Shown: piece after piece, positions 6,871-17,756 of the stretch
Layout of the letters: each line of letters opens with the position of its first letter
Position numbering within the stretch: position 1 is the stretch's first letter
Assembly (NCBI GenBank): GCA_015066975.1
Contig: SVNI01000001.1
Span: 62,001 to 126,000, forward strand
Reading direction: 5' to 3'
DNA length: 64,000 nt
Source of the DNA: Ruminococcus sp.
GTDB lineage: Bacteria > Bacillota > Clostridia > Oscillospirales > Ruminococcaceae
Notes under the pieces: generated by a model
Told to the model about the DNA's origin: nothing
What the model saw: only the letters and a program-made list of their open reading frames with translations
The model's database searches: none
Translations under genes and position numbers: made by a program

Positions 6871-6886
6871 TGTTCCACGTGGAACA
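6871..6886. promoter_or_regulatory. parS site 1 (exact TGTTCCACGTGGAACA)
   Basis: 16-bp perfect palindrome matching the parS core GTTNCACGTGNAAC; abuts the mnmG stop codon. Confidence 0.9.
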
Positions 6887-6907
6887 TTTTCAGGAGTGTG
6901 AAACTTT

Positions 6908-7309
6908 ATGATTCTTCCTGTTGGTGTAACCGGTTTTTTTCAGAAATCCATTCCGCCGGAACTTGATTTCAAAAACTTTCAGCAATATTGTTATTCTGTC
7001 AGAGAGTTTCCAGTGCTGGGAATCAGCAATCAGAAACAAAATAATTATTTCTGTGCAAAATTTCCGGATTTCTGCTTGCTTTTGAACAGATATTATCCGT
7101 TTGCAGGTTTTGTGAATGTTTTATCTTCCGAAAAAATATTTATTAATATCAGCTTTCCGGAGTTTTTTGCATATCAGTTTCTTCCGGCCGAATTCCTCAA
7201 CAGTCCCTTCGATTTCCGGAATCATCAGCTTTCAAAAGCAGAATTACAGCAGATTTTATATTGGAATCCGGTTTCTGTCGGAAATATTATCTTCAACGAA
7301 TGGGATTAA
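6908..7309 (+). CDS. Orphan hypothetical protein, immunity-like (ILPVG...FPVLGIS...YWNPVSVGNIIFNEWD)
   Basis: RBS aggag; preceded by parS 21 nt upstream; family recalled only loosely. Confidence 0.75.
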   Translation: MILPVGVTGFFQKSIPPELDFKNFQQYCYSVREFPVLGISNQKQNNYFCAKFPDFCLLLNRYYPFAGFVNVLSSEKIFINISFPEFFAYQFLPAEFLNSPFDFRNHQLSKAELQQILYWNPVSVGNIIFNEWD

Positions 7310-7317
7310 GTTTAAGA

Positions 7318-7333
7318 TGTTCCACGTGGAACA
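7318..7333. promoter_or_regulatory. parS site 2 (exact)
   Basis: TGTTCCACGTGGAACA. Confidence 0.9.
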
Positions 7334-7354
7334 TTTTGCAAAGAGGTGTGAAAC

Positions 7355-8161
7355 ATGTTCAAAATTCATTTTCAATTGCAGGAACTTGATAAAATTGTTC
7401 CGTGGGGTGATGAAAATCATCAGTCTATGCACTGGTACGGCCTTACTGATGGTTTACTCTGGATTACTGCCGGAAATCAGAATATTTATGAATATTCTCA
7501 AGAAGCAAGAGCTTTCTGGAATGAAGATATTCAGTATAATAATTATCAGATTTCGAGATTTCTGCAAGACTTTTCCGGAACGTTTCCGTTTATCTGCGAA
7601 TCCGTGCCGGAAGAAATTTATGACAATATCGAAAATTTTATGCCGATTACTGATAAATGGAAACGCATTCATGAAGATTTGCCGGATGATGTTTTTGATA
7701 AATGGTATTTTGATGAGGCGTACTGTCCTTTGACAGAATGGTTTTATCAGCAGAATTCTTTTGACTCCGCTCATCTCACGGGTGGTTATCAAATCGGCTG
7801 TTTCCGCTTTCAGGATAAAATCAAATTCTGGTGGGATAATGACGGGCGTATGCTTGAAAATCATATTCCTGTCTGGACTTCGCAAAAAGGCATTTATGAA
7901 ATGAAATATGCTGATTTTGTCAGAGAAGTGCAGAGATTCTTTGATGAATTCTTTCAGAAAATGGATGCTCAGGTGCAGAATGCTGTCGGAAAAGACTGGG
8001 GCAGAGTTCAGCTCGATAAAAATCAGCTCATGAGAGAACATCAAACCACAAAAGAAAGTTTTCAGCAGAAAATAGATGCTCTCTCAAAAAAGCCTCAGTT
8101 TCCAAGAGACTGGAATACGATTTCCGAACTCTGGAAAAAATGCCTTGAAGAACGCAATTAA
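7355..8161 (+). CDS. DUF5984-like protein (putative immunity-type)
   Basis: DKIVPWG...MHWYGLTDGLLWITAG...YQISRFLQDFSGTFPFICESVPEE; parS 21 nt upstream of ATG. Confidence 0.75.
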   Translation: MFKIHFQLQELDKIVPWGDENHQSMHWYGLTDGLLWITAGNQNIYEYSQEARAFWNEDIQYNNYQISRFLQDFSGTFPFICESVPEEIYDNIENFMPITDKWKRIHEDLPDDVFDKWYFDEAYCPLTEWFYQQNSFDSAHLTGGYQIGCFRFQDKIKFWWDNDGRMLENHIPVWTSQKGIYEMKYADFVREVQRFFDEFFQKMDAQVQNAVGKDWGRVQLDKNQLMREHQTTKESFQQKIDALSKKPQFPRDWNTISELWKKCLEERN

Positions 8162-8171
8162 AATTAAAACA

Positions 8172-8187
8172 TGTTCCACGTGGAACA
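8172..8187. promoter_or_regulatory. parS site 3 (exact)
   Basis: TGTTCCACGTGGAACA. Confidence 0.9.
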
Positions 8188-8206
8188 TGTTCAAAAGGTG
8201 AATTTT

Positions 8207-8551
8207 ATGCAAGAAATTACTGTTCTGGATGGATTATTTAAAATTTTATTTGCGATTTATCAAAACCCTACCATGTATCTCCGCAGAAAATCTATTTTTC
8301 AGCTTGAAATTTTTATACAGGGCATCCGTTATGGAGTTGTTTTAGATTGTCAGCAAAATCAGAGATTAAAACAGGAATTAGAGATTCTTCATCAGTTTGA
8401 TTTGTTCCTGAGACAGAAATATTTCTATGGTGCTTCACTTAATTGCTATTCTGCCTTGTACTGTCATTCCGGCGGAAATGAAGAAATTGCTTTTGGTTTA
8501 TTTTTTGAGGAACTCAAAATTTATCTGAATCAGAATACTATATCTATCTAA
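8207..8551 (+). CDS. Orphan hypothetical protein, copy 1 of tandem paralogue pair
   Basis: MQEITVLDGLFKILFA...; RBS aaaaggtg; start placed after parS rather than at the parS-encoded MFHVEH. Confidence 0.75.
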   Translation: MQEITVLDGLFKILFAIYQNPTMYLRRKSIFQLEIFIQGIRYGVVLDCQQNQRLKQELEILHQFDLFLRQKYFYGASLNCYSALYCHSGGNEEIAFGLFFEELKIYLNQNTISI

Positions 8552-8566
8552 ATACAAATATAGTAA

Positions 8567-8582
8567 TGTTCCACGTGGAGCA
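8567..8582. promoter_or_regulatory. parS site 4 (variant TGTTCCACGTGGAGCA)
   Basis: One mismatch from the exact site. Confidence 0.75.
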
Positions 8583-8602
8583 TTTTTCAAAAGGTGATTT
8601 TT

Positions 8603-8947
8603 ATGCAGGAAATTACTGTTCTGGATGGATTATTTAAAATTTTATTTGCTGTTCGTCAAGTTCCCGGAATGTTTCTCCGCAAAAAATCTATTTTTTATCT
8701 GGAAAATTTTATCCGCGGTTTGAGTACTGGCTTTACTCTGGACGGACAGCAGAATCATCAGCTGAAACAAGAACTGGAAATTCTTCATCAGTTCGATTTG
8801 TTTCTGCAACAAAAATATTTCTATGGATCTGCTCTTAACTGCTATTCTGATTTGTATTTTTATTCCGATAAAAATGAAGAAACCGCTTTTGATTTGTTTT
8901 TTCAGGAACTTGAAATCTATCTGAATCAAAATACTGTATCTGAATAA
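8603..8947 (+). CDS. Orphan hypothetical protein, copy 2 of tandem paralogue pair
   Basis: MQEITVLDGLFKILFA...; same length and leader as 8207-8551. Confidence 0.75.
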   Translation: MQEITVLDGLFKILFAVRQVPGMFLRKKSIFYLENFIRGLSTGFTLDGQQNHQLKQELEILHQFDLFLQQKYFYGSALNCYSDLYFYSDKNEETAFDLFFQELEIYLNQNTVSE

Positions 8948-8949
8948 AA

Positions 8950-8965
8950 TGTTCCACGTGGAACA
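8950..8965. promoter_or_regulatory. parS site 5 (exact)
   Basis: TGTTCCACGTGGAACA. Confidence 0.9.
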
Positions 8966-8984
8966 TTTTCAAGGAGTGTGAACC

Positions 8985-9332
8985 ATGACAGTTCCGGAAT
9001 TATTCGAAAATTATTATTTTCATGACAGCAGTTTCCTCAATATGGAATACTGTCCGGAATCTAAAATGGTAAAGCTGTACTGTCAATTTTGTGAGTTTAT
9101 GCAGAAAGATTATCGGGATTGTGAACCGACTAACAGCGATATTCTCATTCTCTTTCGGAATGCTTCGTTTTCTGGTCAGTTCTTTCGTGACTGCGGAATC
9201 CTTACACAAAAATTAATAGATAATCATACTATCTGCTTTTTTCTCGCTGATGAAAAGCATTCCGATTTTTCTGAATTTTCAGTTTCAGCGGATGATGTTC
9301 AAATTCAAGTTATCAGAAAATATCGTCTTTAA
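8985..9332 (+). CDS. Orphan hypothetical protein (immunity-like, 115 aa)
   Basis: FENYYFHDSSFLNMEYCPESK; RBS aaggag; parS 19 nt upstream. Confidence 0.75.
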   Translation: MTVPELFENYYFHDSSFLNMEYCPESKMVKLYCQFCEFMQKDYRDCEPTNSDILILFRNASFSGQFFRDCGILTQKLIDNHTICFFLADEKHSDFSEFSVSADDVQIQVIRKYRL

Positions 9333-9348
9333 TGTTCCATGTGGAACA
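9333..9348. promoter_or_regulatory. parS-like site 6 (variant TGTTCCATGTGGAACA)
   Basis: Single C-to-T change in the central CG; abuts the preceding stop codon. Confidence 0.7.
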
Positions 9349-9383
9349 TATTTCTTAAAAAAATCTTACTGGAGGTATCTATC

Positions 9384-10100
9384 ATGCCGATTCTGCCCGA
9401 TTATGAAACTTCTGAAAAATTATTTCAGGAGTATCAGCTTGATGTTCCACGTGGAACATTCGATAAACTTCAAATCTATGCTGATTTCTTAGTTGATTAT
9501 AATCAGCATGTTAATCTGACTGCCATCACTGACGGAAATGAAATTCTTCGGAAACATTTCCTCGACAGCTTTCTGTTATATTCTCATGCTGGAAACTATT
9601 TTCCGGATTCTGCAAAGATACTGGATATCGGAAGCGGTGCGGGTTTTCCCGGCGTTCCGCTGGCTCTGCTCCGTCCCGATTTTGATATTACTCTGCTTGA
9701 TAGTCTTGGAAAGCGCATCACGTTTCTTGAATTATTAAGACAGAAATTAGACTGTTCATTTTCTGCCGTTCATGGCCGGGCAGAAGAATTCGCTAAACTT
9801 CCCGATTATCGGGAATGCTTTGATGTTGTGACTGCCCGTGCGGTTGCTTCCCTTCCTATGCTCGCCGAATTCTCCCTCCCATATGTCAGAATTGGCGGTT
9901 TCTGGATTTCTATGAAAGGAAAAGAAGATATTTCCCCGGCACTTTCTGCCATTCTGAAACTTGGCGGAAAGCTAGAACAGACTATCTCCTATCAGCTTCC
10001 TGACGGTGACGAAAGAATGCTTTATATCATAAAAAAAATATCGCCCACTCCGACAAAATACCCCAGAAAATTTGCTCAGATTAAGCAAAAGCAACTGTAA
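9384..10100 (+). CDS. rsmG: 16S rRNA (guanine527-N7)-methyltransferase RsmG
   Basis: VNLTAITDGNEILRKHFLDSFLL...ILDIGSGAGFPGVPLALLRPDFDITLLDSLGKRITFL; RBS ctggagg. Confidence 0.96.
   Translation: MPILPDYETSEKLFQEYQLDVPRGTFDKLQIYADFLVDYNQHVNLTAITDGNEILRKHFLDSFLLYSHAGNYFPDSAKILDIGSGAGFPGVPLALLRPDFDITLLDSLGKRITFLELLRQKLDCSFSAVHGRAEEFAKLPDYRECFDVVTARAVASLPMLAEFSLPYVRIGGFWISMKGKEDISPALSAILKLGGKLEQTISYQLPDGDERMLYIIKKISPTPTKYPRKFAQIKQKQL
9443..9458. promoter_or_regulatory. parS site 7 (exact), inside rsmG coding sequence
   Basis: TGTTCCACGTGGAACA read as D-V-P-R-G-T. Confidence 0.9.
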
Positions 10101-10120
10101 AAAAAGACGAATATGTTCGG

Positions 10121-10158
10121 AAATCCGTTATTTTCAAAAGAAATAACGGATTTTTTTT
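10121..10158 (+). terminator. Rho-independent terminator after rsmG
   Basis: aaatccgttatt...aataacggatttttttt. Confidence 0.85.
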
Positions 10159-10248
10159 ATAGCAATGATTTCCCATATCTGTTATAATTAAATTATAGAG
10201 AGATACAACAAAACTTTTTCCATAGAACAACCGAAAGGAGCATTTCTC

Positions 10249-11067
10249 ATGTCTGCAATTCTTACCGTCCCGAAAAATCTTACCGAACAGCGGGTGATGC
10301 ATATCCGTATTGAGGATATTCGCCCGAATCCCCATCAGCCGAGAATTTTCTTTCAGCCTGAAGAACTTCGGGCACTTTCTGACAGTATCCGGCAGAATGG
10401 CATTCTTCAGCCCTTAACCGTCCGACAGTGCGGTGATTACTATGAACTTATTGCAGGTGAACGCCGTCTCCGTGCCGCAAGAATTGCCGGACTCCGCTGT
10501 GTTCCCTGTATTGTCATGGAAATCAATGACCGGAACTCTGCTATTCTCGCACTGGTCGAAAATATTCAGAGACAGGATTTAAACTATTTTGAAGAAGCTG
10601 CTGCGCTTGAAAAATTAATTACTTACTACGGTATGACTCAGGAAGATGCCGCTGTTCAGCTCGGACGAGCCCAGAGCACTGTTGCCAATAAACTTCGTCT
10701 GCTTCGCCTTACCGAAAAAGAGAAAAATTATATTCTCGAAAATCAGCTCACTGAACGTCATGCCCGTGCGCTTCTCAAAATCGCAAACCCTGAAGAACGC
10801 ATGGCTGTTCTTGAAAAAATCACCAAACTCGGCCTGAACGTTGAGAAAACAGAACAGTTTATTGAAGAAAAACTTAATCATGCCAGAGAACAGGAAAATT
10901 TCCGCAAACGAAGCGTTCTGTTCCGGGATGTGCGCTTGTTCACTAATACCATTCAGAAGGCTGTCGAAACCATGCAGGCCGCCGGCATTTCCGCAGAATC
11001 CCAGAAAATGCAGTTCTCTGACTATATCGAATACAGAATCCGCATTCCCCTGAACCAGAAAAATTGA
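10249..11067 (+). CDS. noc: Noc-type ParB-family nucleoid occlusion protein
   Basis: ParB N-domain (RPNPHQPR, IAGERRLRAARIAG), Noc-like recognition region GRAQSTVANKLRLLRL...TERHARALL; located after rsmG. Confidence 0.88.
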   Translation: MSAILTVPKNLTEQRVMHIRIEDIRPNPHQPRIFFQPEELRALSDSIRQNGILQPLTVRQCGDYYELIAGERRLRAARIAGLRCVPCIVMEINDRNSAILALVENIQRQDLNYFEEAAALEKLITYYGMTQEDAAVQLGRAQSTVANKLRLLRLTEKEKNYILENQLTERHARALLKIANPEERMAVLEKITKLGLNVEKTEQFIEEKLNHAREQENFRKRSVLFRDVRLFTNTIQKAVETMQAAGISAESQKMQFSDYIEYRIRIPLNQKN

Positions 11068-11079
11068 TTTTTAAAGTCA

Positions 11080-11095
11080 TGTTCCACGTGGAACA
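11080..11095. promoter_or_regulatory. parS site 8 (exact)
   Basis: TGTTCCACGTGGAACA. Confidence 0.9.
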
Positions 11096-11121
11096 TTGCA
11101 CCGGATGTCATTCACGGTTGT

Positions 11122-11137
11122 TGTTCCACGTGGAACA
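11122..11137. promoter_or_regulatory. parS site 9 (exact)
   Basis: TGTTCCACGTGGAACA, 42 bp start-to-start from site 8. Confidence 0.9.
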
Positions 11138-11170
11138 AATTATTTTTTTCTGCAAAATTTTTAAATTATC

Positions 11171-11199
11171 TTTACAAATCTGCTTAAACATGCTATAAT
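11171..11199 (+). promoter_or_regulatory. Sigma-A-like promoter of parA
   Basis: TTTACA-N17-TATAAT. Confidence 0.75.
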
Positions 11200-11238
11200 A
11201 AATAAGAAGTACAAAACAGAAAGGAGCTATCCTTACTT

Positions 11239-12042
11239 ATGGGTAAAGTGATTGCTGTCGCCAATCAGAAAGGCGGCGTAGGTAAATCTACTACTACTGT
11301 CAATTTAGCCGCTTATCTCGGCTCAAGAGAAAAAAAAGTCCTCTGTATCGATATTGATGCCCAGGGAAATTTAACAACCGGTTTCGGTATCCGTAAAAAA
11401 GGCCTGAAATATTCTGCTTATGAAGTACTTACCGGAAAAGCCAGAATTCAGGATGCTGTCATTCAGACAGCGTTCCAGAACGTTTCTGTTGTTCCGGCGA
11501 CTTCTGACCTTGCAGGAGCAGAAATTGAACTCGTCAATATGGAACAGCGTTTCAACCGCCTGAAAATGCAGGTTCTTACGCTAAGAGATGATTATGATTT
11601 TATCTTTATTGACTGCCCTCCGGCACTCGGTCAGCTTACACTCAACGGCATGACTGCATGTGATGAAATTCTAATTCCCATGCTCGCTGAATATTACGCA
11701 CTCGAAGGCCTGACACAGCTCGTAAATACCATGAAGCTCGTCAAAGCAAATTATAACCCCTCTCTTGATATTCTCGGCATTGTCTTCACAATGTATGACA
11801 ACCGCCTGAATGTCTCGAAACAAGTTGTGGAAGAAGTCGAGAAATATTTCCCGGAAAAAATCTTTCAGACCAAAATTCCCAGAAATGTCCGTCTTTCTGA
11901 AGCTCCCAGCTACGGAAAACCTGTCATGTATTACGATAAGCATTCCAAAGGCACGATTGCTTATGAGTGTCTTGGAAAAGAACTCCTTGGCGAACCGCTG
12001 AGCAGTATCATGAAACTGCGCCTTAATATCGCAAAAGATTAA
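11239..12042 (+). CDS. parA: ParA/Soj chromosome partitioning ATPase
   Basis: MGKVIAVANQKGGVGKSTTTVNLAAYLG deviant Walker A; DYDFIFIDCPPALGQLTLN. Confidence 0.97.
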   Translation: MGKVIAVANQKGGVGKSTTTVNLAAYLGSREKKVLCIDIDAQGNLTTGFGIRKKGLKYSAYEVLTGKARIQDAVIQTAFQNVSVVPATSDLAGAEIELVNMEQRFNRLKMQVLTLRDDYDFIFIDCPPALGQLTLNGMTACDEILIPMLAEYYALEGLTQLVNTMKLVKANYNPSLDILGIVFTMYDNRLNVSKQVVEEVEKYFPEKIFQTKIPRNVRLSEAPSYGKPVMYYDKHSKGTIAYECLGKELLGEPLSSIMKLRLNIAKD

Positions 12043-12060
12043 TCTGAAAGGTACAGACAT

Positions 12061-12393
12061 ATGAATTTTACCGGAATCCTTATCGGAATGATTTCTTTTC
12101 TGATTATCGGCCTTTTTCATCCTATTGTAATCTGGGCAGAATACTATTTCTCTAAAAAAATATGGCCTGCCTTTGCAGGTGTCGGCCTGCTGTGCCTGCT
12201 TCCCTCCCTCTTGAGCCAGAATGCTTATCTGAGCTGTGCTTTTGCTGTTATTTCGGCAAGCTCTTTCTGGAGTATTAAAGAACTCTTTGAACAGGAACAG
12301 CGCGTTCTGAAAGGCTGGTTTCCCAAAAATCCCAAAAGAACTTATCAAGTTTCGCACAGTTCTGAAAAAAATGTGAATTCCGATTTATCTTAA
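12061..12393 (+). CDS. DUF4491-like small membrane protein between parA and parB
   Basis: MNFTGILIGMISFLIIGLFHPIVIWAEYYFSKKIWP...FWSIKELFEQEQRVLKGWFPKNPKR. Confidence 0.8.
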   Translation: MNFTGILIGMISFLIIGLFHPIVIWAEYYFSKKIWPAFAGVGLLCLLPSLLSQNAYLSCAFAVISASSFWSIKELFEQEQRVLKGWFPKNPKRTYQVSHSSEKNVNSDLS

Positions 12394-12423
12394 AAAATCT
12401 ATTACAGAAAGTGATGTGATGTT

Positions 12424-13329
12424 ATGGCGAAAGGCGGTCTCGGCGGTGGCTTAGGCTCTCTCTTTGAAGACAATGCTGCCGAAATCCAGACGAAAAAAAC
12501 AATTCGATTATCAGAGATTGAACCAAACCGGAATCAGCCCCGAAAAATTTTTGATGAATCTGCTATTTCTTCCCTTGCAGATTCCATCCGGGAACACGGC
12601 CTTCTACAGCCGATTCTCGTCCGGCCTCTCCCACTTGGTAATTATCAGATTGTTGCCGGAGAACGAAGATGGCGTGCTGCAAGAATGCTCGGCCTGACTG
12701 AAGTCCCTGTCATCATCCGCGAATTGTCCGATATTGAAACAGCACAGATTGCCCTTATCGAAAATATTCAGCGTGAAGATTTAAATCCGCTTGAAGAAGC
12801 AAAAGCCTTTCAGCGTTTGCAGGATGATTTCGGCATGAAGCAGGAAGATATCGCCAAAAAAGTCGGCTGTTCACGAAGTTCTGTTACTAATGCTCTGCGG
12901 CTTCTCAAACTTCCTGAAGAAATTCAAGCGATGCTTGTCAGAAACGAAATCACTTCCGGACATGCCAAGGCACTGCTTAGTTTCAGTGATGAAAATGCAA
13001 TGCTTCAGGCTGCATACAAAGCCGCCCAAGGTCTGCTCAATGTTCGGCAAATTGAAAAATTAGCGGCTGATTCGGAGTCCAAAGAACTTGATGACATTCC
13101 AATTTCTAAATCTGTTTCCTATTTTGGCGAAATTGAACATGCACTTCATACCCGGCTTGGCAGAAAAGTCAAAGTCCAGTTCAAGAAGAATAAAGGCACA
13201 CTCAGCCTTGAATTCTATGATGAAGAAGATTTGAAACTCCTTGCGGAACTTCTCTCGCCTAATGAGGAGGGCAGTACTTTTGAATCGGCTTATGACTATG
13301 TGGACAAGCACGAAAAAAATTATGATTAA
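12424..13329 (+). CDS. parB: ParB/Spo0J centromere-binding CTPase
   Basis: KGGLGGGLGSLF; PNRNQPRKIFDE; VAGERRWRAARMLG; parS-type recognition GCSRSSVTNALRLLKL...SGHAKALL. Confidence 0.96.
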   Translation: MAKGGLGGGLGSLFEDNAAEIQTKKTIRLSEIEPNRNQPRKIFDESAISSLADSIREHGLLQPILVRPLPLGNYQIVAGERRWRAARMLGLTEVPVIIRELSDIETAQIALIENIQREDLNPLEEAKAFQRLQDDFGMKQEDIAKKVGCSRSSVTNALRLLKLPEEIQAMLVRNEITSGHAKALLSFSDENAMLQAAYKAAQGLLNVRQIEKLAADSESKELDDIPISKSVSYFGEIEHALHTRLGRKVKVQFKKNKGTLSLEFYDEEDLKLLAELLSPNEEGSTFESAYDYVDKHEKNYD

Positions 13330-13337
13330 TTTTTAAA

Positions 13338-13353
13338 TGTTCCACGTGGAACA
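13338..13353. promoter_or_regulatory. parS site 10 (exact)
   Basis: TGTTCCACGTGGAACA. Confidence 0.9.
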
Positions 13354-13377
13354 TTTTTACAGGAAAGGTTTCCCATC

Positions 13378-13776
13378 ATGGAAGACGTCTTCTATCTCTG
13401 CCCACAAAAAATTACTGTTGCTCATATAAAACAGGTCTTTCAGAATATCAGTTCTGATAATATTATTTCAGATGATGAACGTCTGCAAATTATCTGGAAA
13501 GAATCAGAAAAATTACAGTTTATTGAATTCTACCTCTTCCCTGATTATATGTACTCTGTGGATGAGGAGGAAACAGAACTCATGCTTGATACTATCCGGA
13601 AATATCATGTCAGCACAGTTGTCGGCATTCTGCATCATACAAGACATATTCCAATCGTACTGAAATATACTGCCCTGCTCATGCAGAAATTCGGCGGTGT
13701 GCTTGGTACGGATACCCCCGGTTTTTTCCCTTGTTTCTCCCTCGCTGAACTTCAAAAATTTCAGCATCAAGATTAA
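13378..13776 (+). CDS. Orphan hypothetical protein (132 aa)
   Basis: ORF with parS 24 nt upstream of the ATG; RBS aggaaagg; no family recognised. Confidence 0.7.
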   Translation: MEDVFYLCPQKITVAHIKQVFQNISSDNIISDDERLQIIWKESEKLQFIEFYLFPDYMYSVDEEETELMLDTIRKYHVSTVVGILHHTRHIPIVLKYTALLMQKFGGVLGTDTPGFFPCFSLAELQKFQHQD

Positions 13777-13793
13777 CCAAGTTTATTTTTAAA

Positions 13794-13809
13794 TGTTCCA
13801 CGTGGAACA
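13794..13809. promoter_or_regulatory. parS site 11 (exact)
   Basis: TGTTCCACGTGGAACA. Confidence 0.9.
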
Positions 13810-13833
13810 TTTTCACAGAAAGGATTTTTTATT

Positions 13834-15126
13834 ATGTTAGATATGAAATTTTTAAGAACCAATCCTGATATTGTAAAGGAAAATATCAAAAAGAAATTTC
13901 AGGATGAAAAATTACCCCTGGTTGACGAAGTTATCGAACTCGATAAACAGTTCCGTGATGCCAAACTCAAGGGCGATGAACTCCGCGCTCAAAGAAAAGC
14001 AAAAAGTAAATTAATCGGCGGACTTATGGCAAAAGGTCAGAAAGAAGAAGCCGAAGCTGTTAAAGCTGAAGTCTCCGCTATGGGCGACGAACTTACTGCA
14101 CTCGAACAGAAAGAAGCTGAAATGCAACAGGAAATCAAGAAAATTATGATGATTATCCCTAACATCATTGACCCCTCTGTTCCGATTGGCAAAGATGATT
14201 CTGAAAATGTCGAAATTGAAAAGTTCGGCGAACCCTTTACCCCTGACTTTGAAATTCCCTATCATGTCGATATTATGGAAAAACTCAACGGCATCGACCT
14301 CGATTCCGCCAGAAAAACTTCCGGCAACGGCTTCTATTATCTCTGCGGTGATATTGCAAGACTGCATTCTTCCATTCTCTCTTATGCAAGAGATTTCATG
14401 ATTAACAGAGGATTTACTTATTATATCCCTCCGTTTATGATTCGTTCCGATGTCGTGACCGGTGTTATGAGCTTTGCCGAAATGGAAGGCATGATGTATA
14501 AAATCGAAGGCGAAGATTTATATTTAATCGGCACTAGCGAACATTCCATGATTGGCAAATTTATTGATACTATCCTCCCCGAAGAAAATCTCCCCCAGAC
14601 CCTCACAAGCTATTCTCCCTGCTTCCGTAAAGAAGTCGGCGCGCACGGCATCGAAGAACGTGGCGTTTACAGAATTCATCAGTTTGAAAAACAGGAAATG
14701 ATTGTTGTCTGCAAACCGGAAGACAGCATGGCTTGGTTCGATAAGCTCTGGCAGAATTCTGTTGATTTCTTCCGTACACTCGATATTCCGGTCAGAACGC
14801 TCGAATGCTGTTCCGGCGACCTCGCAGACCTGAAAGTTAAGTCCCTTGATGTTGAAGCATGGTCTCCCCGTCAGCAGAAATATTTTGAAGTCGGAAGCTG
14901 TTCCAATCTCGGTGATGCACAGGCAAGAAGACTTGGCATCCGTGTCAGAAAAGAAGACGGTACAAAATATTTTGCACATACCCTCAATAATACCGTTGTC
15001 GCTCCGCCCCGTATGCTGATTGCTTTCCTTGAAAATAATCTCAATGAAGACGGCTCTATCCGTATTCCGGAAGCACTTCGCCCCTATATGGGCGGTATGG
15101 AAGTTATTTCTGTTCCGGTCAAATAA
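13834..15126 (+). CDS. serS: Seryl-tRNA synthetase
   Basis: MLDMKFLRTNPDIVKENIKKKF...; GTSEHSMIGKF; CFRKEVGAHGIEERGVYRIHQFEKQEM. Confidence 0.97.
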   Translation: MLDMKFLRTNPDIVKENIKKKFQDEKLPLVDEVIELDKQFRDAKLKGDELRAQRKAKSKLIGGLMAKGQKEEAEAVKAEVSAMGDELTALEQKEAEMQQEIKKIMMIIPNIIDPSVPIGKDDSENVEIEKFGEPFTPDFEIPYHVDIMEKLNGIDLDSARKTSGNGFYYLCGDIARLHSSILSYARDFMINRGFTYYIPPFMIRSDVVTGVMSFAEMEGMMYKIEGEDLYLIGTSEHSMIGKFIDTILPEENLPQTLTSYSPCFRKEVGAHGIEERGVYRIHQFEKQEMIVVCKPEDSMAWFDKLWQNSVDFFRTLDIPVRTLECCSGDLADLKVKSLDVEAWSPRQQKYFEVGSCSNLGDAQARRLGIRVRKEDGTKYFAHTLNNTVVAPPRMLIAFLENNLNEDGSIRIPEALRPYMGGMEVISVPVK

Positions 15127-15147
15127 TTTCTTCATGTTTTTCTCTCA

Positions 15148-15163
15148 TGTTCCACGTGAAAAT
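15148..15163. promoter_or_regulatory. Degenerate parS-like site 12 (TGTTCCACGTGAAAAT)
   Basis: Left half and central CACGTG intact, right half decayed; 15 bp from site 13. Confidence 0.55.
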
Positions 15164-15178
15164 GTTCCACGTGGAACA
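15163..15178. promoter_or_regulatory. parS site 13 (exact)
   Basis: TGTTCCACGTGGAACA. Confidence 0.9.
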
Positions 15179-15197
15179 TTTTTTATTTCTTCATCTC

Positions 15198-15226
15198 TTG
15201 ACAAAATCATTCAAAAGTGCTATTAT
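15198..15226 (+). promoter_or_regulatory. Sigma-A-like promoter
   Basis: TTGACA-N17-TATTAT upstream of the 15249 ORF. Confidence 0.75.
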
Positions 15227-15248
15227 ATCCCTAAAGAGGTGATTTGCT

Positions 15249-15740
15249 TTGAAAACTATGAATTGTCCTCAGTGTGGCGGTGTTCTCCATCTTACACAGT
15301 ATCCCGGTGTCTATCATTGCAGATACTGCCGGAATATTATCGAATCTAATGTGATTGCTCTCCATGAAATGGAACTCCAAAAATATCAGCTCCAGCTTCA
15401 GGAACAGGCTTTGCTTGAAGAAAAAACGGCTCGGCTCAAAAGTCTGAAAAAAGTTCGGAACTGGCAGTATCTTTGTGCATTCTGGTGGGGATTTATTGCA
15501 CTTACTTTTCTTCTCGGTATCTTTGCGGTATGCTGTCCGACTACATTGTCTCATGTACTGGCAAATATGATAATGATGTGTCTGCAACTGCGGGCTGTCG
15601 GCTCACTGGCCGTGACATGCGCCCGTCCTGATAAGAACTATGAATTATCTGCCCCGCCGGCATGTTCACAGGGAGTTTTGATATTCCTTTTCTGGTTTGC
15701 GGATATGTTTCAATGGGTGTTTGTCATACTGGCATCGTAG
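15249..15740 (+). CDS. Zinc-ribbon membrane protein, hypothetical
   Basis: CPQCGGVLHL...YHCRYCRNI zinc ribbon, two hydrophobic segments. Confidence 0.7.
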   Translation: MKTMNCPQCGGVLHLTQYPGVYHCRYCRNIIESNVIALHEMELQKYQLQLQEQALLEEKTARLKSLKKVRNWQYLCAFWWGFIALTFLLGIFAVCCPTTLSHVLANMIMMCLQLRAVGSLAVTCARPDKNYELSAPPACSQGVLIFLFWFADMFQWVFVILAS

Positions 15741-15748
15741 AAATTTCA

Positions 15749-15764
15749 TGTTCCACGTGGAACA
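15749..15764. promoter_or_regulatory. parS site 14 (exact)
   Basis: TGTTCCACGTGGAACA. Confidence 0.9.
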
Positions 15765-15783
15765 TTTTCAAATCACAAAAATA

Positions 15784-15813
15784 AGGACGGCAAACTGTCG
15801 TCCTCTTTTTTTT
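15784..15813 (+). terminator. Terminator between two parS-like sites
   Basis: aggacg...cgtcct followed by tttttttt. Confidence 0.75.
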
Positions 15814-15828
15814 GTTCCACATGGAACA
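15813..15828. promoter_or_regulatory. parS-like site 15 (variant TGTTCCACATGGAACA)
   Basis: Single G-to-A change in the central CG. Confidence 0.7.
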
Positions 15829-16668
15829 TTATTCTTCTTCGGAATAAACTGTTACTTCCATTCCATACGCTTTCAGACTCTTGATTTCCTGCTCCGAAAG
15901 CTGATAGTCAGAAATCAGGATTTTTTTCAAAGAAGGCAAATGCATCAGTTCTTCTTTGGAAATTATCAATTCCGGACAATTGTGATAATCCAGCGTTTCC
16001 AAACGTTCGGCATTCTCAAAATGAATTTCTTTCAGTTCCGGATTGTTTGCAACATTCAGATAGCGCACAGCATTGTGACTGAATGTCAGTTCTTCTACAG
16101 AACTATACCAGATTTGCAGATAATCAAGATATTTCAACTGCGGAAACTGTTCTGTTGAAACTGTCTTTTCTTCTACTCCAGATAAGGCAAGACTCTTTAA
16201 GCCCGGTGTCAGCGATTCAATTCCGTTCAGACTGTGAATTTTGATATCTCTTATCAAAAACTGTCCTATCCATAATACCCGAAGCCGTTCCGCATCCGAA
16301 AAACAGGATACATCTGAAAGCTCCGCATAACCATTAAGACAGACATATTCCAGATTTCTGCAAGTTGATAATGATGAAATATCTGTTATCGGTTCGGCTA
16401 AATTATCCACAGAAAAATTTTCCAGCAGAGGCATGTACTCTACAAAAGAAATATCTTTTGTCTGCATGTCAGAAACAGAAAGTTCTCTTATTTGCGGAAA
16501 GAATTTTAATTTTTCTGCATCATGCTGATTCAGGCTTTCTATCCGCAGTTCTGAACAGAAACGATTCACGAATTTTCCATCAATCCGCACAATGCTCAAA
16601 CAGCACAGAACTATCACGCATATCACGGCAATCAGAAGTTTCTGCTTTGCGGTGAATTTTCTTGTCAT
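15829..16668 (-). CDS. Leucine-rich-repeat-like protein with N-terminal TM
   Basis: KLLIAVICVIVLCCLSIVRI TM; repeated LxxLxL patterns (LKSLALSG, VRYLNVANNPELKEIHFENAERLETLDYHNCPEL). Confidence 0.7.
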   Translation of the reverse strand: MTRKFTAKQKLLIAVICVIVLCCLSIVRIDGKFVNRFCSELRIESLNQHDAEKLKFFPQIRELSVSDMQTKDISFVEYMPLLENFSVDNLAEPITDISSLSTCRNLEYVCLNGYAELSDVSCFSDAERLRVLWIGQFLIRDIKIHSLNGIESLTPGLKSLALSGVEEKTVSTEQFPQLKYLDYLQIWYSSVEELTFSHNAVRYLNVANNPELKEIHFENAERLETLDYHNCPELIISKEELMHLPSLKKILISDYQLSEQEIKSLKAYGMEVTVYSEEE

Positions 16669-16687
16669 ATTTCAAGCTCCCCAAAAA

Positions 16688-16703
16688 TGTTCCACGTGGA
16701 ACA
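16688..16703. promoter_or_regulatory. parS site 16 (exact), leader of the minus-strand LRR gene
   Basis: TGTTCCACGTGGAACA; 19 nt upstream of the minus-strand ATG at 16668. Confidence 0.9.
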
Positions 16704-16708
16704 TTTTC

Positions 16709-17659
16709 TTAATCAATTATCTGTGCAGAACCAGTGTTCAGAAGCATTTCTGCGCCGTCATCCAGACGGATACAAAGCCCGGCTTCTTCTGTAAAGCTTT
16801 CTGCTATGCCTTCCAGTCCGGTATCTGTCCGTACTCTGTGCCCCAGCGTACAGGAATTTTCTGTATATACTTCCAGATATGTCCGGTCGAAAATTTCCAG
16901 AAAATATTTTCTCATCTGTTTTAAAATCTCTGCTGTCAGTTCGCATTTGTTGATGTGCTTTCCCGTTTCGGTTTCAATATCCGTAACAATCGGCTTTAAT
17001 TCTTCCGGAAGATGCGGATCGGGATGCAGATTGATGCCAATCCCAATTATCAGATAATCCATTTTCAGCATCTCTGCATTGAAACTCCCCTCTGAAAGAA
17101 TTCCGCAGATTTTTTTATGATTCAGAAATAAATCATTTACCCATTTGATTTGTGTCTCTATTCCGAATTTTTTCAGTGCTTCATGTACTGCTGTGGCTGT
17201 ACATGCTGTGATGCTCATCATGGCAGATAACTGCAAATCCGGATGGATTACCACAGACATATATAACCCGCCGGTCGGCGAATGAAAACTCTTGCCCATT
17301 CTGCCCCGGCCTGCTGTCTGCACATCTGCTGTGACAACAGTCCCGTCCGGTGCGCCCTGCGAAGCCAGTTCTTTTGCTAATCTGTTCGTAGAATCCAGTT
17401 CTTCATAATGCTGTACTTGCCAGTTTGTCCCCTCCAGAAGCATCTGCATATATGTCTGATTATAAATATCCGGAATCTTTTTCAGAAGATACCCTTTATT
17501 TGTAATCGCATCAATTTCACAGCCCTGCGCCTTTAACTGGTCAATCGCCTTCCAAATGGCTGTACGGCTGACCCCGAATTTTTCTGCAAGCTGTCCGCCG
17601 GAACAATATTCTCCCTTGGACAATATTAATTCTGTCAGGATTTTTTCTTTCAGGCTCAT
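16709..17659 (-). CDS. birA: Bifunctional biotin--[acetyl-CoA-carboxylase] ligase / biotin operon repressor BirA
   Basis: HTH GGQLAEKFGVSRTAIWKAIDQLKAQG; ligase GRGRMGKSFHSPTGGLYMSVV; KWVNDLF. Confidence 0.94.
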   Translation of the reverse strand: MSLKEKILTELILSKGEYCSGGQLAEKFGVSRTAIWKAIDQLKAQGCEIDAITNKGYLLKKIPDIYNQTYMQMLLEGTNWQVQHYEELDSTNRLAKELASQGAPDGTVVTADVQTAGRGRMGKSFHSPTGGLYMSVVIHPDLQLSAMMSITACTATAVHEALKKFGIETQIKWVNDLFLNHKKICGILSEGSFNAEMLKMDYLIIGIGINLHPDPHLPEELKPIVTDIETETGKHINKCELTAEILKQMRKYFLEIFDRTYLEVYTENSCTLGHRVRTDTGLEGIAESFTEEAGLCIRLDDGAEMLLNTGSAQIID

Positions 17660-17740
17660 GTTTCAGTCCCCCTATTTTTCTGTTCGCTTTACTTATATTA
17701 TAGCATATTTTTCAATCTCTTTCAAGTACTTCCTGAAAAA

Positions 17741-17756
17741 TGTTCCACATGGAACA
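17741..17756. promoter_or_regulatory. parS-like site 17 (variant TGTTCCACATGGAACA)
   Basis: Same central variant as site 15. Confidence 0.7.

Follow-up and report, generated by a model that had tools for sequence, protein, structure and literature searches.

What is parS known for, and which described loci come closest to the one analysed here? The palindrome is a loading site for ParB and SMC. In B. subtilis, ten parS sites are present, eight of them in the ori domain (PMC7022226). Our locus resembles the Spo0J-parS system of that organism in having a 16-bp palindrome that conforms to the TGTTNCACGTGNAACA type and neighbours oriC and parAB, and a ParB with R and G at positions 173 and 201; it differs in packing 16 sites into 10.9 kb, the majority placed where inserted genes meet. 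Integron cassettes are similar in being tandem small open reading frames (ORFs) with a short palindromic site after each and a mosaic arrangement between strains. Here, however, the site is a near-identical parS, not attC or attI, and no single insertion end was seen; by eye, the only sequence common to the seams was parS plus leader. No IntI match in the genome exceeded the NF011946 cut-off, weak matches occurring in all 14 control genomes as well, and no recombinase was found for the array. Vibrio T6SS orphan-immunity arrays and polyimmunity loci (PMC5361080, PMC3482391) are likewise short, laterally exchanged, mosaic gene arrays, and for Vibrio recombination is reported to proceed without specific integration sites, whereas the present array lies at the centromere and has a fixed seam sequence. 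It would link known parS biology to a laterally exchanged gene array, with parS as the joints. We found no report of parS-seamed cassette arrays in the open literature within reach of our search (the key survey, Livny 2007, lies outside it).

The window, that is, the whole 64,000-nucleotide stretch of Ruminococcus sp. DNA that was analysed, contains every copy of the palindrome in its genome: TGTTCCACGTGGAACA occurs 12 times exactly and four times with one mismatch in 2.61 Mb, and all 16 sites fall within 10.9 kb (Table 1). The sites lie around parA/parB, mnmG and rsmG, in a neighbourhood that also includes mnmE, noc and serS. With up to three mismatches to the TGTTNCACGTGNAACA type, the window has 17 matches versus 0.24 (0.16) expected. 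Judged by sequence, the set of 16-mers is best taken as chromosomal parS near oriC. The resident ParB carries R173 and G201 in an alignment read by eye, the residues that give parS preference according to a Caulobacter study (PMC7383237), and thus appears to match parS-type specificity. Noc sites were rejected as the second ligand, there being no exact copy of the Noc-type site TATTTCCCGGGAAATA in the genome.

Table 1. Sites, genes and seams in window positions 6871 to 17756.
Position	Strand	Feature	Remarks
6871..6886		parS	Seam of mnmG stop and 133-aa cassette
6908..7309	+	Cassette h133	Leader TTTTCAGGAGTGTGAAACTTT; no Pfam family matched
7318..7333		parS	After h133, before DUF5984 cassette
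7355..8161	+	Cassette DUF5984 (PF19446)	Leader TTTTGCAAAGAGGTGTGAAAC
8172..8187		parS	After DUF5984 cassette, before h114 copy 1
8207..8551	+	Cassette h114, copy 1	Leader TGTTCAAAAGGTGAATTTT
8567..8582		parS variant TGTTCCACGTGGAGCA	Between h114 copies
8603..8947	+	Cassette h114, copy 2	Protein 73% identical to copy 1
8950..8965		parS	Comparison site of the original prediction
8985..9332	+	Cassette h115	Leader TTTTCAAGGAGTGTGAACC; predicted beta-rich fold, pLDDT 86
9333..9348		parS variant TGTTCCATGTGGAACA	h115/rsmG seam
9443..9458		parS	Within rsmG, encodes VPRGTF; intragenic placement found in sister species too
10249..11067	+	Noc-like ParB paralogue	Specificity positions Q/K/R/R
11080..11095		parS	noc-parA spacer, first
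11122..11137		parS	noc-parA spacer, second
12424..13329	+	ParB	Specificity positions R/A/K/G, parS type
13338..13353		parS	parB-h132 seam
13378..13776	+	Cassette h132	parB-serS interval; present in G014 too
13794..13809		parS	h132-serS seam
15163..15178		parS	Past serS; degenerate copy at 15148 overlaps; promoter-like site 15198-15226 downstream
15249..15740	+	Cassette h163	serS-birA interval; nucleotide identity 99% in G011
15749..15764		parS	8 nt past stop of 163-aa gene
15784-15804		Terminator-like hairpin	Between parS 15749 and parS 15813
15813..15828	-	parS variant TGTTCCACATGGAACA	One mismatch; touches LRR stop codon; 3' seam
15829..16668	-	LRR protein gene, 279 aa	Pfam LRR_4 and LRR_8; serS-birA interval cassette
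16669..16687	-	LRR leader TTTTTGGGGAGCTTGAAAT	T-run and RBS
16688..16703	-	parS, exact palindrome	5' seam of LRR cassette; 5 nt past birA stop
17741..17756		parS variant	Divergent birA/mntP spacer; upstream of promoter-like site for birA

The TGTTCCACGTGGAACA-type genomes form one clade (mnmG 100/99, parA 100/100), part of which carries two to eight small genes between mnmG and rsmG and others beside serS; TGTTTCACGTGAAACA-type sister species have 0-4 exact sites, with mnmG directly adjoining rsmG. The array-bearing set consists of the window's genome, G001, G003, G005 (in both versions of its locus), G011, G014, G015 and G025, and its content is mosaic: the order is h133-DUF5984-h114-h114-h115 in the window's genome and G011, F47-h133-h115-DUF5984-h114-h114-F17-h115 in G014, and h115-F17-DUF5984 in G015. 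Every called cassette seam between mnmG and rsmG has a parS (42/42), versus none of 39 neighbouring backbone seams (mnmE-mnmG, rsmG-noc, parA-parB, parA-DUF4491-parB and the yidC side); gene starts came from a small purpose-written caller, those overlapping a site being corrected by rule. Two observations go against the pattern: the serS-birA interval has two seams without parS, and a DUF4491 gene (12061-12393) is inserted between parA and parB without parS in the window's genome, G011 and G014. The latter gene provides a useful negative control. Among 38 genomes, DUF5984 (7/7 matches) and h114 (9/9 matches) are confined to these arrays. Bounded by parS at both ends, the LRR gene belongs to these cassettes, and its only good relative, 35% identical and found in the serS-birA interval of G003, likewise lies between two parS. 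Among named relatives, h114 occurs in metagenome assemblies of uncultured Ruminococcus sp. and Oscillospiraceae, for some of which the name gives goat omasum or roe deer rumen, and the array evidence of known origin rests entirely on metagenome assemblies.

What do the cassettes encode? None of those scanned matched an Imm family, the content being DUF5984, SF0329, cupin, LRR and orphans, and SMI1/KNR4 matches, all below cut-off, lay outside the array. PADLOC and NCBIfam were uninformative on cassette function except for SF0329. The structure model of h114 (pLDDT 60) is too poor for function, and a search with the predicted h115 fold gave no match at E 0.001, the best candidate being an uncharacterised Neisseria protein.

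Steps in sequence identity suggest that several cassettes were transferred between species as units running from one parS to the next. The h114 unit, from parS to parS, differs by a single base between G003 and G025 (~99.7% identical); for this pair, identity is 73-84% in backbone genes and 77% between the DUF5984 copies, and the two genomes diverge immediately past the second parS of the unit. Between G000 and G005b, identity is 94% for h133 and 91% for DUF5984 versus 74-83% for the backbone, and between G000 and G011 it is 98-99% for h114, 98% for DUF5984 and 99% for h163 versus mostly 77-89%. Where the neighbours differ, homology is lost at parS, identity beyond it falling to the level of unrelated sequence (55-68%). 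Unequal crossing-over could account for the tandem h114 copies. As to a vehicle for the cassettes, the phage, plasmid and viral collections yielded nothing. In G001, h114 (L065:4175-4555) has lost its stop, and its ORF runs through parS as NVPRGTFF, in keeping with parS as the actual junction; the h115 ORF of G003 (L066:7154-7765) extends upstream across a parS.

Together, this suggests a recombining, laterally exchanged cassette array, seamed by parS and located beside the chromosomal centromere, a reading to which we assign a probability of roughly 55%. In one clade of the genus, small accessory genes would have entered three intervals (mnmG-rsmG, parB-serS and serS-birA), each as a unit of parS, leader, ORF and stop, followed by the next parS. 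Gain, loss, duplication and exchange of cassettes would proceed via recombination in a repeat of ~20-40 nt (parS, A/T arms and leader), ParB may bind the seam copies and keep the palindrome intact, which would account for the uniform seam sequence, and the parS count would rise as cassettes arrive. We infer, further, that parS or ParB drives the exchange. Only tentatively do we advance the stricter proposal that parS is an integron-like, integrase-free recombination seam, where the palindrome and the short leader supply the homology for interspecies swaps of origin-proximal accessory genes. A serious rival is that parS is a passenger in a general hotspot of gene exchange, since exchange in any compact operon has intergenic breakpoints. 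If true, the cassette-array reading links centromere evolution to gene gain, explains how parS numbers could climb within one genus from a few to over ten, and offers a natural dense-parS system for testing models of ParB and SMC loading.

How does the leader fit into this array? The original prediction had singled out the exact parS on the minus strand, 19 nt before the LRR ATG (TGTTCCACGTGGAACA-TTTTTGGGGAGCTTGAAAT-ATG from 16703 downward), and the plus-strand site 19 nt before the ATG at 8985, and both strings and their coordinates are correct. The common 19-nt gap holds loosely, the gaps across the set being 19, 19, 19, 20, 21, 21, 24, 24 and 35 nt. Similar flanks had also been claimed for this pair, and 12 of 19 positions do match, which is weak evidence when taken alone: 1.1% of ordinary leader pairs do as well or better, and when eight leaders are drawn at random, the best-matching pair gets to 12 in 27% of draws. 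Once the four T beside parS are set aside, the match drops to 8/15, a value attained by 9.7% of ordinary pairs and not significant, so the LRR example fails to carry the leader claim and was rejected as its sole proof. The T-run is half of a symmetric extended palindrome and not specific to the gene side: T occupies outward positions 1-4 in 91, 70, 60 and 54% of 164 exact sites (both sides pooled), and the A/T arms are mirrored on both sides of parS, convergent and intragenic copies included. Compared with its only syntenic relative, the LRR leader is not conserved (similarity 0.32). Among the window's eight independent leaders, ATG-aligned mean identity is marginally raised (P 0.04 over 19 nt, 0.01 over 14 nt).

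For the whole set, the comparison of gene-side flanks with ordinary RBS regions that had been suggested as a check came out above background. Gene-side similarity between families is 6.98 versus 5.36 +/- 0.40 for random leader sets, with 0 of 150 draws reaching 6.98; the stop-side value is 3.2, a comparison that is only indicative given the short strings from stop codon to parS. Genus-wide, 17/62 parS leaders have GTGTGAA no more than 30 nt ahead of the start, versus 3/585 leaders without parS. Of the 14 cassette families, five have this shared leader, for which the above rates give a binomial P of about 7e-9; the families are BLAST groups at E 1e-3 whose mutual non-matching holds at the BLAST level. 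A test for homogenised leaders inside single genomes did not reach significance (P 0.16). The proposed leader association of the unit thus stands for the set through GTGTGAA, but not through the LRR pair, the symmetric T-run or the position of parS, which hugs the upstream stop. In part, the data support an association that is real but derivative, a by-product of seam position, because parS marks the seam of an inserted gene and the gene's own RBS leader follows.

Spacing points the same way. In 77 co-oriented spacers, which come from TGTTCCACGTGGAACA-type genomes and include orthologous ones and are hence not independent, parS lies a median of 8 nt past the stop before it and 24 nt ahead of the following start, never closer to the latter than 17 nt, and in 56 of them the site lies 0-17 nt past the stop. 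A gap of 19 nt is the room that an RBS requires, and the placement needs no leader explanation: parS appears in leader position because it fills the few bases between one stop and the next RBS. When each family contributes a single spacer, the stop-side bias does not reach significance overall (KS 0.12) and shows in long spacers only (0.016). These distances are also what would be expected if parS had simply multiplied near oriC for ParB and SMC loading, copies surviving only between stop and RBS, where they leave codons, promoters and RBSs intact, and the cassettes being unrelated insertions into a spot prone to horizontal transfer. Cassette-free relatives with sites spread out (30 in G033, on many contigs) or in tandem agree with such an ordinary centromere expansion, which we regard as possible, at well below even odds; it leaves unexplained, however, why parS flanks every inserted gene while backbone spacers of similar length have none, and why the GTGTGAA leader is shared.

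Most of the genomes are metagenome assemblies, in which false joins can arise at parS repeats, and the mosaic junctions could then be misjoins between contigs of different species at repeated parS k-mers. Some contigs, those of G025 among them, do end at parS, and in G005 the locus exists in two versions. The 87-bp overlap of the two G025 contigs begins at parS and reflects either several upstream contexts for one cassette in the sample or an assembler confused by the repeat. Such an artefact is nonetheless unlikely as the general explanation: independent assemblies repeat the junctions h133-DUF5984, DUF5984-h114 and h114-h114 (three each) and h114-h115 and h115-rsmG (four each), and the array in the window is embedded in a 216 kb contig. 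Least probable of all is a regulatory leader, in which ParB at parS or an mRNA parS hairpin controls translation or transcription of the next gene, for although the palindrome folds into a hairpin of ~8-11 bp immediately 5' of the RBS and ParB of P. aeruginosa represses genes adjoining intergenic parS3/4 (reviewed in PMC7022226), copies also lie past terminal genes, between convergent genes and within rsmG, long spacers keep the site near the stop and not the start, and loss of Spo0J leaves expression of parS-adjacent genes in B. subtilis unchanged (PMC7022226).

The sites themselves show further peculiarities. One-mismatch variants across the genus cluster at the central CG (C8T or G9A, 18/43), with the outer half-sites intact. 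Two cassette-free relatives carry parS satellites of four exact copies each, tandem with a 70-bp period in G006 (C10:154379-154604; locus L071) and with a 203-bp period in G028 (C13:4959-5584; L116). Within window positions 15140-15200, a degenerate and a perfect parS overlap by one base and form a joint hairpin (-18.2 kcal/mol, z -5.9), which, lying right before a promoter-like site, may double as a terminator.
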